A stretch of DNA of 40,515 nt from a virus, in IMG/VR virus record IMGVR_UViG_3300043395_002208, positions 1 through 40,515 of that record. One strand, given 5' to 3'. How positions within the stretch are numbered: position 1 is the first letter of the stretch; each line of letters opens with the position of its first letter. Position numbers and translations under genes: made by a program. This document shows, one piece after another, positions 2,201-27,220 of the stretch. A model generated the notes under the pieces. That model did no database searches. It had not been told where the DNA came from and worked only from the letters and a program-made list of their open reading frames with translations.

Positions 2201-2370
2201 GTAGGGGAACTGAGCGGGGGTCGGCCGGGAGGGCCGCTGTTGGACCCGGTGTCTACGCCGTCTACGCCCTGTCTACAAGGGGTGTAGACACTCAGATCGG
2301 CTGCGCCGGAGTGGGTCTGCCCCTCTTGTCTACGTTGTCTACATCTAAAAAGAAGAACACTCTCACTCTT

Positions 2371-2427
2371 GCGCACGCCCGCGCGTGCACGCGCGCATCG
2401 CGTACGCGCGCACATGCACGTGTGTGA
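2371..2427. other. Alternating purine-pyrimidine tract inside the repeat region
   Basis: About 57 bp dominated by CG, CA and TG steps (for example GCGCGTGCACGCGCGCAT), following an A/G-rich stretch at 2346-2358. Such sequence can adopt left-handed DNA under supercoiling. It separates two subclusters of the GTCTAC repeats. No protein-like frame uses it convincingly. Confidence 0.5.
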
Positions 2428-2542
2428 GCCCCCTGCGGCGGTCGGGAGCGTAGACGCGTAGACAATCGCTGAGATCCTTTGTGCCGCAAGCGATCTGACC
2501 GTCTACAGGGGGTGTAGACAGGCTGGAGGGGTGTAGACACGC

Positions 2543-2568
2543 AAAAAAAGCCGCAGACTGGCTGCGGC
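2543..2568 (-). terminator. Rho-independent terminator after the primase operon
   Basis: On the minus strand a perfect 7-bp stem GCCGCAG/CTGCGGC with a 5-base loop is followed by seven T residues. It lies about 50 bp downstream of the primase stop, within the GTCTAC repeat cluster, and would stop leftward transcription before the next operon's own promoter. Confidence 0.8.
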
Positions 2569-2620
2569 GGAAAGGATCTGACCGTCTACAGGGGGTGTAG
2601 ACGGGGCTCTGTCTACAGGC

Positions 2621-5275
2621 TCAGGCCTGATCGAGCGTGGTGAGGGGCACGGCGGTAGCGCGTGCGTTGGAGGTGTGGCCGGCGAAGCGTGTGGGCTGTG
2701 TCTTGCGTGCGCCCTGTAGACGCCGAAGGACGGTGGGCCAGCAATCCGCCCAGGGGGTGTCGGCAAGGATGCGGCGGATCCCGATGGCGTTGTTGTGGAT
2801 GACCAGGCAGAGGTCACCGTCGACGGATTCGACCTTGAGGCCGGCGCGGCCGAGGTGAGCGCGTGCCTGGCCCTGGCTGATCTCCATGGAGGTGGTGGCG
2901 CTGGCGGGGCTTGCGAGATCGATCAGCTCGCTGACGGTGCGGTTGTAGCCGTTGCCGCGGTCGCCTTCGACGCGGATCTGGTGCTGGAGGAGGGTCTGGA
3001 TGCAGCGCTGCTCATCGGGCAGTTCTGTGGCCTCGCGGTAGGGTTCCCAATCGTTTTCATCGATGAGCTTGTAGGCGTCATTGATGGTTGCTTGTTGGCT
3101 GTTCATCAACGACCAGGCGCCGGCCAAGAGTGTGCCGTACTGGTCACCTTGACGCTGTGAGTCGAAGCGATCGGCGGCAGCGCGACGGAATACGGCGAGG
3201 GATTGGCGAATGACGGGGATGAGATGAACGGAACGAATGAGGAGACGATGACCGGCTTCTGTAGTGATGATGTCGGTGAGGTCGCGATCGAGGTTGTTCC
3301 AGTGGGCGATGCGATCAGCCTTGGGGAGGTGGTTGGGGTTGCGGAGTGTGAGTTGAGCGAAGCGGCTCTGATCGGCGCCTTGTTTGAGTGCGGTGCTGAT
3401 AGAGCAGAGGAGGAACATGGAGCGGATGGTGAAGCGCTGAGCAGCACCATCGGCGCCGCCCTTGCCGATCACGCCACGGCCGGAGCTTGAGGCGACGCGT
3501 GCGAGAGCGAGGATGTTCTGAATGCGTGTGCGATCTGATTTCTCGTTGGATTCGGCCTCGTCAAAGACGACCGGGAGGGCATCGGCGCGGAGCTCTTGGC
3601 GGATGAAAGCCTCGGTGGTGTTGCCCTCGGGCCAGATGGCCATGCTGTCGAGGAGAGTGCCGAGAAAGCGATCGAGGATGGCGGACTTGCCGGAGCCGGC
3701 GGAGGCTGTGAGCCAGGCGTGTGGGCGCCAGGCGAGGGCCCCGCAGATGGGTGCGAGAGCGGTCCAGCCGGCGAGGAGGAGTCCTGAGGCGGGAACTTCC
3801 CAGTGGAAGCGGGATGCGATGTCGAGGATCTCGGCGCCGTCCTGATCGGAGAGTGGCGTGAGGCTGTCCGGGATGTCGATGGATGCGAGGCGCTGGTAGG
3901 AGAAGCGGGACGGCGGTGGAGCCATGACGCTGTGGGGTGTGCCGTCAACGATGAGGCGATCACCGAGGTGCAGGACGGAACGGCCTTGATCCCACCAGGC
4001 GCCACGGCCGCGGATGCGATCAGGGGAGTAGATGCCGACCTGTGCCTGCTGTGCGAAGAGGTCAGAAGCCGCAGCAGCCCAGTTGGCGCCGGACTTGGCG
4101 GGGTAGATGGTCTCCCAGTAGGCGAGGGGCGCGACGGCAAGGAGGTTGGTGCCGGTGTGCGAGGCGCGTGAGAGCCTGAGCACCTGCCCGGTGTTATTGG
4201 GCTGGTAGTAGTAGGAGTCCCCGTCAAAGCCGAGACAGGTGAAGGGTGCGTCGGAGGGGATGGGGCGTGATGGCGCTGGCTCCGGATCGGGCTCGGGCTC
4301 GGGCCCGGGTTCCGGTGCTGCGGGGAGGGTGATGGGATCGGAGCGGTGCGCCTGCGCGTGAGCGGAGAGCTGCTCGGTGGTCCAGTCGGTGGCATCAGCG
4401 AGGTCCCAGCCCGGGGGTGCGTCGGCTGGTGGTTGGATGATGCGGACCTGTGCGGCGCCGTGGGTGAGGAGGATGGGCGCGAGCTTGGCCATGGCCTCGC
4501 GGCCGGGGTCGTCGTTGTCGGGCCAGAGGATGATGCGGCGGCCGGCAAGGGGTGACCAGTCGACGCGGTGGATGGCCTTGGAGCCGTTGGGCCAGGCGAT
4601 GCAGACGACGGTGGGTAGGAGTGCGGCGGCGGCGTCAGCGGACTTCTCGCCCTCGGTGATGAGGACGGTGGCGTCGGGCTTGGCGGCGAGGAGGTGGAGG
4701 TTGTAGAGGGGCCGCGGTGCGGGCCACTCGGAGGTGAAGGGGTCCTTGCGGGAGGGTCGATGCCAGCGGCCGTCGAGCCAGGTGCGGTGGAGAAAGAACT
4801 TGCGGCCGTTGGCGAGGTTGCAGCGCTGGATCCAGAAGAGCTGCTCGCCGGCGGCGTTGCGGTAGCACCACTGGGCGACGGCGCCATCGAGGGTTGGCGG
4901 TGTGGCGTCTGGTGGCGGGGTTTCGGGGATGCGTGCCGGGCGCTTGGGGGTGGTGGAGGGTGTGGCGGGCACGGCGGGTGTGAGGCCGAGGTGTGCTTCG
5001 ACGGCTGAGGCGGCTTCGCGGTAGGAGAAGCCGCGGATGCGCATGAGGAGCCCAATGCCGGTGCCGCCACCACCGGTGCCGTCACGGCCGCCGCAGTGGG
5101 AGCAGAACCAGGAGCCAGGGCCGTCGTCACCGTCCCAGCGGTAGCGGTCGGTGCCGCCGCAGTTGGGGCAGGGCTGGTGGCGATTGGTGAGCTGGTCGGG
5201 CGTGAGGCCAGCGAGGGCCATGAGCAGCTGAGGCCAACGACCGTCAGCGGCTTCGAGCGATCGGGAAGGAGCCAT
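2621..5275 (-). CDS. P4-type primase-helicase for phage replication
   Basis: An 884-residue protein that should prime and unwind DNA at the phage origin. A zinc finger uses Cys36, Cys39, Cys58 and Cys61 (CPNCGG ... WFCSHCGG), as in P4-alpha-type primases. A TOPRIM-like catalytic domain follows: TEGEKSADA near 207-215 and the acidic WPDNDDPGR near 251-259. A Pro/Glu linker at about 318-338 separates this from the helicase half, with a Walker A motif ASAGSGKS at 524-531 and a Walker B-like LPVVFDEAE at 567-575. The ATG overlaps the stop of the RHH gene by one base, so the two are coupled. The downstream terminator and the GTCTAC cluster fit a replication module. The helicase class (SF3 or AAA+) was not resolved. 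Confidence 0.9.
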   Translation of the reverse strand: MAPSRSLEAADGRWPQLLMALAGLTPDQLTNRHQPCPNCGGTDRYRWDGDDGPGSWFCSHCGGRDGTGGGGTGIGLLMRIRGFSYREAASAVEAHLGLTPAVPATPSTTPKRPARIPETPPPDATPPTLDGAVAQWCYRNAAGEQLFWIQRCNLANGRKFFLHRTWLDGRWHRPSRKDPFTSEWPAPRPLYNLHLLAAKPDATVLITEGEKSADAAAALLPTVVCIAWPNGSKAIHRVDWSPLAGRRIILWPDNDDPGREAMAKLAPILLTHGAAQVRIIQPPADAPPGWDLADATDWTTEQLSAHAQAHRSDPITLPAAPEPGPEPEPDPEPAPSRPIPSDAPFTCLGFDGDSYYYQPNNTGQVLRLSRASHTGTNLLAVAPLAYWETIYPAKSGANWAAAASDLFAQQAQVGIYSPDRIRGRGAWWDQGRSVLHLGDRLIVDGTPHSVMAPPPSRFSYQRLASIDIPDSLTPLSDQDGAEILDIASRFHWEVPASGLLLAGWTALAPICGALAWRPHAWLTASAGSGKSAILDRFLGTLLDSMAIWPEGNTTEAFIRQELRADALPVVFDEAESNEKSDRTRIQNILALARVASSSGRGVIGKGGADGAAQRFTIRSMFLLCSISTALKQGADQSRFAQLTLRNPNHLPKADRIAHWNNLDRDLTDIITTEAGHRLLIRSVHLIPVIRQSLAVFRRAAADRFDSQRQGDQYGTLLAGAWSLMNSQQATINDAYKLIDENDWEPYREATELPDEQRCIQTLLQHQIRVEGDRGNGYNRTVSELIDLASPASATTSMEISQGQARAHLGRAGLKVESVDGDLCLVIHNNAIGIRRILADTPWADCWPTVLRRLQGARKTQPTRFAGHTSNARATAVPLTTLDQA

Positions 5276-5451
5276 CAGGCGTTGCGGTCTGCGGCGTCGG
5301 CCTGCATGGCGCGGGCGATGAGGGTGCGAGCGAAGGCGCTGCGGGACATGAGGCCTGCGGCCTGTGCGTCGAGCCAGGCGACCTGCTCGGGTGGGAGGTC
5401 GAGGGTGATGAAGCTGCGGCGCTTGGCGGTAGCGGCCGGAGGTGAGGCCAT
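5275..5451 (-). CDS. Ribbon-helix-helix DNA-binding protein (Arc/CopG-like)
   Basis: A 58-residue protein with the layout of an RHH dimer: a short strand RRSFITLDLP at residues 11-20, then helix A (PEQVAWLDAQAAG) and helix B (SRSAFARTLIARAMQ). RHH proteins usually repress their own promoters by binding short dyads. The ATG at 5451 is preferred; an in-frame GTG at 5478 would place extra residues inside the operator. It is the first gene of the leftward primase operon and lies beside a dense inverted-repeat region, so autoregulation is likely. The target is inferred, not shown. Confidence 0.8.
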   Translation of the reverse strand: MASPPAATAKRRSFITLDLPPEQVAWLDAQAAGLMSRSAFARTLIARAMQADAADRNA

Positions 5452-5458
5452 TGCGATT

Positions 5459-5488
5459 GTGGTCACGATTGCGACCACGCTAGCGTGG
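5459..5488. promoter_or_regulatory. Overlapping palindromes in the divergent rhh/helicase promoter
   Basis: Three elements overlap in 30 bp between divergent starts at 5451 and 5514. GTGGTC and GACCAC form a dyad with 8 bp between them (5459-5478). Inside it, GGTCACGATTGCGACC (5461-5476) belongs to the 16-bp operator family seen elsewhere. CCACGCTAGCGTGG (5475-5488) is a perfect 14-bp palindrome. CGATTG also recurs 13 bp apart (5454, 5467). The leftward and rightward replication genes could both be controlled from here. Confidence 0.65.
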
Positions 5489-25288: not shown

Positions 25289-27220
25289 TCAGGCGAACAG
25301 CACCACGAAGCGGCGACGGATCACTTGACCGCTGGCGGTCCCGCTGAGCGACAACGGAACGATTGAGTTGCCGGCGACCATCACCCCGGCGGTGGCGCTT
25401 CCACCGAGCGACAGGCCAACAACAGCGCCACCAGCCACCACCACTGCGCCGGCAGCGGCCCCCCCGATTGAGAGCGTGACCGAGCTGGTGCCCTGGATCG
25501 CAAGAGCAGTGACGCTGCCGCTAGCACTGCCGCCGATCCCGAGCACGCCAGAGCTGCTGCCCGTGATGGCCACCACGCCGGCAGCAGATCCGCCCATGGG
25601 CAGGTCGGCCGTGCTGGCCCCTTGGACCGGGGCCGCCCCGGTGGCGGTGCCAGTCAGCGACAGCGCAGCAGCGCTGGTGCCCGCGACGGCCGCAGCGCCA
25701 GCAGCGGAGCCGCCCAAGTCCAGAATCTGACTGCTGGCCCCGCTGACCTGAACCGTGCCGGCCGCCGTGCCCGTGATCGCCAGGGCTTGGCTGCTGCTGC
25801 CGGTGACGCGGACAGATCCCGAAGCGCTGCCGGTCAGGCTCAGGATCCCGGAGCTGGCGCCGACCACCGCCACTGCACCAGTGGCACTGCCCGGCAGCGC
25901 CAGGGACTGGCTGGAGGTCCCTGCGATCCCGACCGCACCGGCCGCCGCACCGCTGAGCGCTAGGGACTGGCTACTGGCGCCCTGGATCAGCCCACTGCTG
26001 ACCGTGCCGGTCGCTGTGCCGCTGAGGCTGAGGGAGGCCGAACTGGAACCGACCACGGCCACCGCGCCGGCTGCGCTGCTAGTCAGGCCAAGGGCCTGGT
26101 TGCTGGTGCCGCTGACGTCAACTGCCCCGGTGGCGGTGCCGCCCAGGCTGAGCGTGCTGGAACTGGCTCCGGCCACGGCAACAGCGCCAGCCGCCGAGCC
26201 GGACAGCGCGAGCGTGGCGGTGCTGGAGCCAGTCACGGCCACAGCCCCAGCCGCGCTGCCGTTCAGGGTTAGAGCCTGGCTGCTGGCGCCACTGACTCGA
26301 ACCGTGCCGGCGGCTGTGCCCGTCAGGCTCAGCGCGCCAGAGCTTGCGCCAGTCACCAGCACCGCACCGGCCGCGCTGCCGCCCAGGCTCAGCGACCCGG
26401 AACTGGCGCCCGCCACCGCCACGGCCCCGGCCGCGCTGCCCGTGAGGGCCAGGGCTTGGCTACTGGCGCCAGCGACCGCCACCGCTCCCGCGGCGCTGGA
26501 GGCTCCTAAGGCAAGGGTCGCAGAGCTGTCGCCGGTGATCGAGGCCGCGCCGCTGACCGTGCCTGCTGCGCTGCCCGTCAGTGCCAGCGTTTGATCGCTA
26601 GCGCCGTTGACAGTGACAGCGGCCGTTGCCGTGCCGGTGATTGCCAGGGTCTGGGTGCTGGCACCCACCAGCGCCACTGCACCAGCCGCGGTGCCGCCCA
26701 GAGCGAGGGCCCCGGCACTGGCGCCGGAAACGGACACGGTGCCCGCCGCCGTGCCGGCCAAGGCCAGGGTGCTGCTGCTGGTGCCGCTGACGGCCACGGT
26801 GCCGGCCGCAGAGCCGGCCAGGGCCAGGGCGCCCGAGCTGGCGCCAACCACGGCCACGCCGCCGGCCGCGCTACCGCCTAGGGCGAGCGTGCCCGCGCTG
26901 GCTCCGGCGACTGCCACATCGCCGTCCGCTGAGCCGCCCAGCCCGAATGTCGCGGAACTGGTGCCTGCTACAGAGACATTGCCGGCCGCGTCACCGCTCA
27001 GCGCGAGGGTGGCCGAGCTGGTGCCAGTGATGGCGCCCAGTCCACCAACCGTGCCATCGGCAGAGCCGCTGATCGAGAGCGTGGCCGAACTGGTGCCGAC
27101 AACCGGCGAGACACCGATCAGGCCGTCGAACGCGATTGCCCGCAGGATGCTGCTGCGGCGGGCGCTCAGTGCCGCCGAGATCGAGGACGTCTTGCCCCAG
27201 CGGAATACGCGACGTGCCAC
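25289..27220 (-). CDS. Repetitive Gly/Ala/Ser-rich fibre-like structural protein
   Basis: A 643-residue protein made almost wholly of 29 tandem 20-residue units with a consensus near VAGASSxxLALxGSAAGAVA. The regular alternation of small and hydrophobic residues suggests a beta-solenoid or a stacked-strand rod. A 39-residue N-terminal region (MARRVFRWGKTSSISAALSA at its start) would anchor it to the particle, and RRRFVVLFA ends it. It probably forms a long thin fibre or surface appendage. The start is a GTG three bases after the upstream gene. An adhesin-like decoration is the alternative. It has no enzyme motif. Confidence 0.75.
   Translation of the reverse strand: MARRVFRWGKTSSISAALSARRSSILRAIAFDGLIGVSPVVGTSSATLSISGSADGTVGGLGAITGTSSATLALSGDAAGNVSVAGTSSATFGLGGSADGDVAVAGASAGTLALGGSAAGGVAVVGASSGALALAGSAAGTVAVSGTSSSTLALAGTAAGTVSVSGASAGALALGGTAAGAVALVGASTQTLAITGTATAAVTVNGASDQTLALTGSAAGTVSGAASITGDSSATLALGASSAAGAVAVAGASSQALALTGSAAGAVAVAGASSGSLSLGGSAAGAVLVTGASSGALSLTGTAAGTVRVSGASSQALTLNGSAAGAVAVTGSSTATLALSGSAAGAVAVAGASSSTLSLGGTATGAVDVSGTSNQALGLTSSAAGAVAVVGSSSASLSLSGTATGTVSSGLIQGASSQSLALSGAAAGAVGIAGTSSQSLALPGSATGAVAVVGASSGILSLTGSASGSVRVTGSSSQALAITGTAAGTVQVSGASSQILDLGGSAAGAAAVAGTSAAALSLTGTATGAAPVQGASTADLPMGGSAAGVVAITGSSSGVLGIGGSASGSVTALAIQGTSSVTLSIGGAAAGAVVVAGGAVVGLSLGGSATAGVMVAGNSIVPLSLSGTASGQVIRRRFVVLFA
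25319..27103 (-). repeat. 29 tandem 60-bp coding repeats
   Basis: The unit is 20 codons. Units 1, 9, 18 and 26 are longer by 3 or 4 residues (ending GLGA, SGAAS, SSGL, TALA) and the unit after each begins with Ile rather than Val. Spacing is thus 8, 9 and 8 units, a higher-order period. Unit 10 has one extra residue. The repeats are degenerate at the DNA level, so the protein pattern is under selection. Confidence 0.9.

Follow-up and report, generated by a model that had tools for sequence, protein, structure and literature searches.

In SaPIs, the C-terminal domain of the Rep protein recognises iterons that lie directly downstream of its own gene (PMC7581432), and PICI origins comprise an AT-rich region flanked by two sets of iterons (PMC6092414). 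P4 alpha likewise has a cognate ori (PMC6092414). In PLE, a satellite of a Vibrio phage, the origin iterons and the specificity of the initiator RepA vary together, as a swappable module (PMC8263062), and TcpK reads tandem nine-base boxes mainly by means of a β-wing (PMC6137059). Here we describe an array of short repeats beside a primase-helicase gene in a phage sequence of 40,515 nt (IMG/VR record IMGVR_UViG_3300043395_002208, positions 1–40,515; the whole of this stretch is hereafter ‘the window’). The array (2251–2616) is very probably a phage replication origin that is read by the C-terminal winged helix of the adjacent primase-helicase.

Results

The hexamer GTCTAC or its complement GTAGAC occurs in 14 exact copies within 366 bp (2251–2616), where base composition predicts about 0.13 (P about 3e-24 for 14 copies), bearing out a sequence-only reading of this DNA that had put the chance expectation below one. 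Non-coding throughout, the block follows immediately on the 3′ side of the primase-helicase gene (2621–5275, minus strand), between the stop codon of that gene and the next likely start codon (~2126, minus strand); its placement at the replicase gene in the same reading stands. A count over the whole phage sequence, proposed there as a check, gave 25 copies in the window, whereas dinucleotide shuffles averaged 5.3; one extra copy, at 2716, falls within the 3′ end of the primase gene, and no other hexamer is as densely clustered anywhere in the window. A dyad scan recovered the three GTCTACA-N5-TGTAGAC dyads of identical spacing that had been described (2271–2289, 2501–2519 and 2584–2602), with no match in controls, and the second and third of these lie, again as described, in identical copies of a 28-bp direct repeat (2492–2519 and 2575–2602) that are 83 bp apart. 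Within the array, and 3′ of the primase gene, is a hairpin with a T-run that resembles an intrinsic terminator (2550–2568, minus strand). To our knowledge, the GTCTAC word belongs to no named system.

When the dyad scan alone was run over viral contigs it returned 99 stretches, about the level expected by chance for 14 fixed bases, and the density of the array alone separates true arrays. The array had no DNA similarity to phage records, as is to be expected if the words diverge. An RNA element was considered as the identity of the array and set aside; Rfam gave only two sub-threshold microRNA matches, to a tract of alternating purines and pyrimidines (described below), and these were taken as chance. 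In this linear virus contig, which may be incomplete, GC skew had neither a minimum nor a maximum of use at the array. Elsewhere in the window, ARAGORN called a tRNA-Val (GAC) at 26282–26358 (minus strand), inside an Ala/Gly/Ser-rich repeat ORF (25289–27220, minus strand), probably because repetitive coding DNA there folds in this way by chance.

The window primase is related to PHROG 35358, and two profile scans of viral contigs, together with earlier scans, yielded 108 usable members. GTCTAC clusters are apparently missing from close relatives (47–70% identical), in which the DNA 3′ of the stop codon comprises dense arrays of other words. With an array taken as six or more copies of a single hexamer within 420 bp after the primase stop, arrays were found in 61/68 non-redundant relatives, compared with 49/2575 control windows (1.9%). 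Weak arrays were seen in five relatives (L105, L117, L118, L268 and L270), and two distant relatives (L119 and L120) had no array after the primase stop. Words followed lineage: TGTAGACA in the window, and CGTAACA, CGTTACA, CGTGAGA, CCTAAC, CCTCAC, CGCAACA, CGGGACA, CGGTACA, CGTAAGA, CGTCAGA and CGTGACA in others. The window's word, in the same layout of facing pairs, was also present at two primase loci (L168 and L176) and at the 3′ end of VapE-type genes (L011, L028, L165, L178 and L192), which were so named from sequence and not from a scan of a family library; in close relatives of L028 the words are different. In 58 cases the primase stop codon lay inside a copy of the word (TAA in CGTAACA, TGA in CGTGAGA), meaning that the array starts within the primase gene. 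As to the host, the primase of Synechococcus WH 7803 phage S-H1 (MK105819) is 60% identical to that of the window, which points to a cyanobacterium.

Site positions in relatives were near-constant regardless of the word. Two tandem pairs (7–9 bp step) face one another ~100 bp apart, and beyond them comes an opposite site ~44 bp on, followed by steps of ~12, 10 and 9 bp. The window fits this shared geometry, with pairs at 2450/2458 and 2328/2337 and then sites at 2284, 2271, 2260 and 2251. Its inner pair on the far side consists of two GTCTAC copies 9 bp apart (2328–2342, plus strand), and the pair on the primase side, facing it, of two GTAGAC copies 8 bp apart (2450–2463, minus strand); the core between the two (2343–2449) spans 113 bp site to site. 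By duplex stability, the weakest stretch of the core (CTAAAAAGAAGAACACTCTC, 2345–2364) is a candidate DNA unwinding element, only 1% of control windows being as weak. In 94% of 71 loci the weak stretch of the core ranked in the weakest 10% of control windows; its median distance from one inner pair was 6 bp. The core also holds a tract rich in alternating purines and pyrimidines (2371–2427, longest run 28) that is prone to form Z-DNA; such a run was in the top 10% of controls in 72% of relatives, and a role for Z-DNA here is possible. Each half of the array has, in addition, an imperfect inverted repeat between word sites (CAGAYC..TGCGGCGCAG..GGATCTG, ~2300–2330 and ~2467–2497), with similar inverted repeats in relatives, and these repeats may act in priming, as hairpins, or as a second site for a protein.

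The product of the primase-helicase gene, the proposed initiator, comprises a Zn ribbon, a DnaG-type TOPRIM domain, an MCM-like AAA+ domain and a C-terminal winged helix, and the last three were recovered in a full-length structural model (pLDDT 85) as a DnaG-like TOPRIM fold, an MCM-like AAA+ core and a winged helix at the C-terminus. The best Foldseek match of the full model was SCCmec Cch (5dgk_A, E 6.8e-9; VIA Z 13.1 over 426 residues). For 43 members, the matches listed at E 0.1 did not include Pfam DUF927, despite the fold match to Cch. The proposed reader of the word is the winged-helix domain (residues 740–884; 2624–3058, minus strand), for which the model of the domain alone (pLDDT 92) had TcpK (Z 5.3), SaPIBov1 Rep (5.2) and Cch (3.4) among its best matches, all of them modest scores. 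Foldseek with this domain alone gave no match at E 0.001, and a sequence profile search of the PDB gave nothing convincing.

Variation in the word was mirrored in this domain. Over the full set of protein columns, excess mutual information with the word (13 word classes, ungrouped) peaked at 861, 875 and 863, of which 863 ranks third and all of which are within the last 25 residues (numbered with the start Met as residue 1). A copy of the word overlaps column 861 in 18 loci and column 875 in 29, so that part of the signal of these two columns is not at the level of the protein; the codon of residue 863, unlike these, never falls in a word copy, making it the cleanest signal. This residue, an arginine in the window (codon 2687–2689, minus strand), is placed by the model where the first wing strand ends. 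It was R in 77/78 loci with ..ACA words (the other having H), Y in 15/15 loci with ..AGA words and W in 15/15 loci with CCT.. words, and so fitted the word class in 107/108 loci. On a tree built from residues 1–760 only, word class underwent seven changes, residue 863 eight and the pair eight. All seven changes of word class coincided with a change at 863, which was the best column in the protein, and the single extra change observed compares with a minimum of four in 1558 simulated independent characters, the three word classes used here having been grouped after residue 863 had been seen.

Three close pairs were found in which the C-terminal domain and the array differ as one block. The VapE-type pair L271 and L273 is ~97% identical over most of the protein, but the last ~60–90 residues and ~350 bp of the array differ, with the word changing from GTAGACA to GTCAACA, and identity is back to nearly 100% in the next gene. 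The other two pairs belong to the window's own family: L248 and L249 share ~92% identity before the block, 30–70% within it and ~90% after it, and L239 and L221 have a similar block, the far end of which is less clear. A mosaic was seen in L112 and L217, with GTGAGA in the primase-side half and GTTACA in the far half; this looks like a recombinant with its break in the core. Such a mosaic origin is a natural test of the need for both halves.

The same loci bear on whether the array is an origin of which only one half, for example the primase-proximal one, is essential, the other being bound by a host factor or serving in copy-number control. This arrangement, which is compatible with an origin read by the winged helix, gains from the fact that L112 and L217 have kept the matching word in the primase-side half only, and from the presence of two related words in L249-type loci. 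Since both halves share the word and the fixed spacing in nearly all other loci, we think it rather unlikely.

On its far side the array was flanked by different genes in different relatives (tail-like, RHH-like or unknown), the primase 3′ end being the only constant neighbour. This is relevant to the suggestion that the array is not an origin at all but a regulatory or partition site of another phage protein, such as a repressor or the small RHH protein encoded just upstream of the primase (5275–5478), dyads and tandem sites being typical of regulators and of centromere-like sites. An RHH relative was found in only 24/108 loci (some loci being short of upstream sequence), whereas the array is near-universal, and a site of this kind fits poorly with differing far-side genes and with a word that covaries with the C-terminus of the primase. 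We therefore judge it highly improbable, and disfavour the RHH protein, which the sequence-only reading had offered as an alternative binder. A packaging (pac/cos) or recombination (attP) site can be given almost no credence: a terminase-like gene does seem to lie beyond the array in a few relatives (as read from ORF translations) and the phage encodes a large serine recombinase, but the recombinase is 9 kb from the array, other relatives have tail-like, RHH-like or unknown genes beyond it with only the primase 3′ end constant, and neither kind of site would be expected to covary with the primase wing. The best-supported reading of the array is the one first put forward as a candidate, a replication origin beside the replicase, its place and geometry being conserved and its word covarying with the primase C-terminus.

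Discussion

The features that suggest how this origin might work are all read from sequence, namely an array whose place and geometry are conserved, its weak core, a residue (863) that covaries with the word, and block differences between close pairs. In the mechanism that we propose, the C-terminal winged helix would bind the GTCTAC words, probably via its β-wing, and two facing complexes would assemble on the inward-facing tandem pairs, as a double hexamer. The weak stretch between the pairs would then melt, each strand would receive an MCM-like AAA+ ring, and synthesis would be started in both directions by the fused TOPRIM primase, making initiation bidirectional. Because the domain that is proposed to read the word is encoded at the 3′ end of the gene, beside the sites, domain and array could be exchanged as one cassette, and such exchange would enable ~12 sites to change word together. 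It is conceivable, if on balance somewhat doubtful, that single wing residues (863 and its neighbours) set the word, that word and reader move as a cassette, and that private words blind the origins of co-infecting relatives.

In both the window and the SaPI/PICI Rep-ori module, which is that of staphylococcal and Gram-negative phage-inducible islands, iterons lie directly 3′ of the rep (pri-rep) gene, as do the arrays of 61/68 relatives, and two iteron sets surround an easily melted segment. In SaPI/PICI it is the C-terminal domain of the helicase that recognises the iterons, to which the window domain may be likened by the SaPIBov1 Rep fold and by covariation; an AAA+ helicase with a C-terminal winged helix, as in initiators of this type, is what structure prediction gives for the window protein. 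The differences are that the window phage has head and tail genes of its own (it encodes major head, scaffold, virion and endolysin proteins, whereas a PICI is a satellite that lacks a full set of virion genes), that its primase part is of the TOPRIM/DnaG type by domain and fold and not of the AEP type of the SaPI primase, and that many words occur within one protein family, with a wing residue that tracks them. On the strength of this comparison with known systems, we regard the Rep-ori of the window as SaPI/PICI-like and as working in the manner of that module, although it belongs to a full phage, not itself a PICI, with a primase of the DnaG type. Our verdict is accordingly of an iteron origin of the SaPI/PICI-Rep type in cyanophages, a known kind of module in a new variant.

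Other systems share individual features with the window. SCCmec Cch is the best full-length structural match to the primase-helicase, but the solved Cch chain (519 residues) is without a fused TOPRIM primase. TcpK, which acts on the oriT of plasmid pCW3, is a winged helix and heads the fold matches to the C-terminal domain (Z 5.3), but it is a conjugation accessory protein and not a replication initiator, and a shared fold is no proof of the same mode of reading. In PLE, origin iterons and RepA specificity vary together, a feature that the window's family would share, although RepA is a RepA_N initiator with N-terminal DNA binding and three semi-palindromic iterons of ~30 bp. P4-like systems, with iterons next to a primase-helicase, had been named as the precedent by the sequence-only reading. 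P4 alpha is a primase-helicase that recognises iterons; its origin layout, with type I iterons and two separated sites (ori and crr), is different from that of the window. The closer precedents are SaPI/PICI Rep-ori and SCCmec Cch, where the iterons come straight after the helicase gene and its C-terminal domain reads them (PMC7581432, PMC6092414). Streptococcus thermophilus phages, too, reportedly have an origin beside the primase gene.

An origin of this kind would extend the SaPI/PICI type to tailed cyanophages. The family amounts to a natural record of initiator–origin co-evolution across about a hundred related phages, and to a large natural series of initiator–origin pairs in which the spacing is fixed but the word changes and, with it, one residue. 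It thereby becomes testable how an initiator and ~12 identical sites can change specificity jointly, and the domain-plus-array blocks offer an answer. For uncultured phages, it would also become possible to predict origin, initiator and likely incompatibility group from sequence.

At the distant TOPRIM-primase loci L129, L131, L136 and L140, dense arrays were found ~1.5–2 kb after the TOPRIM match, built of the words GGAACA, AGGTGGAC, AGGGCACC and TGCCAA, suggesting that the pattern may extend beyond the family of the window primase.
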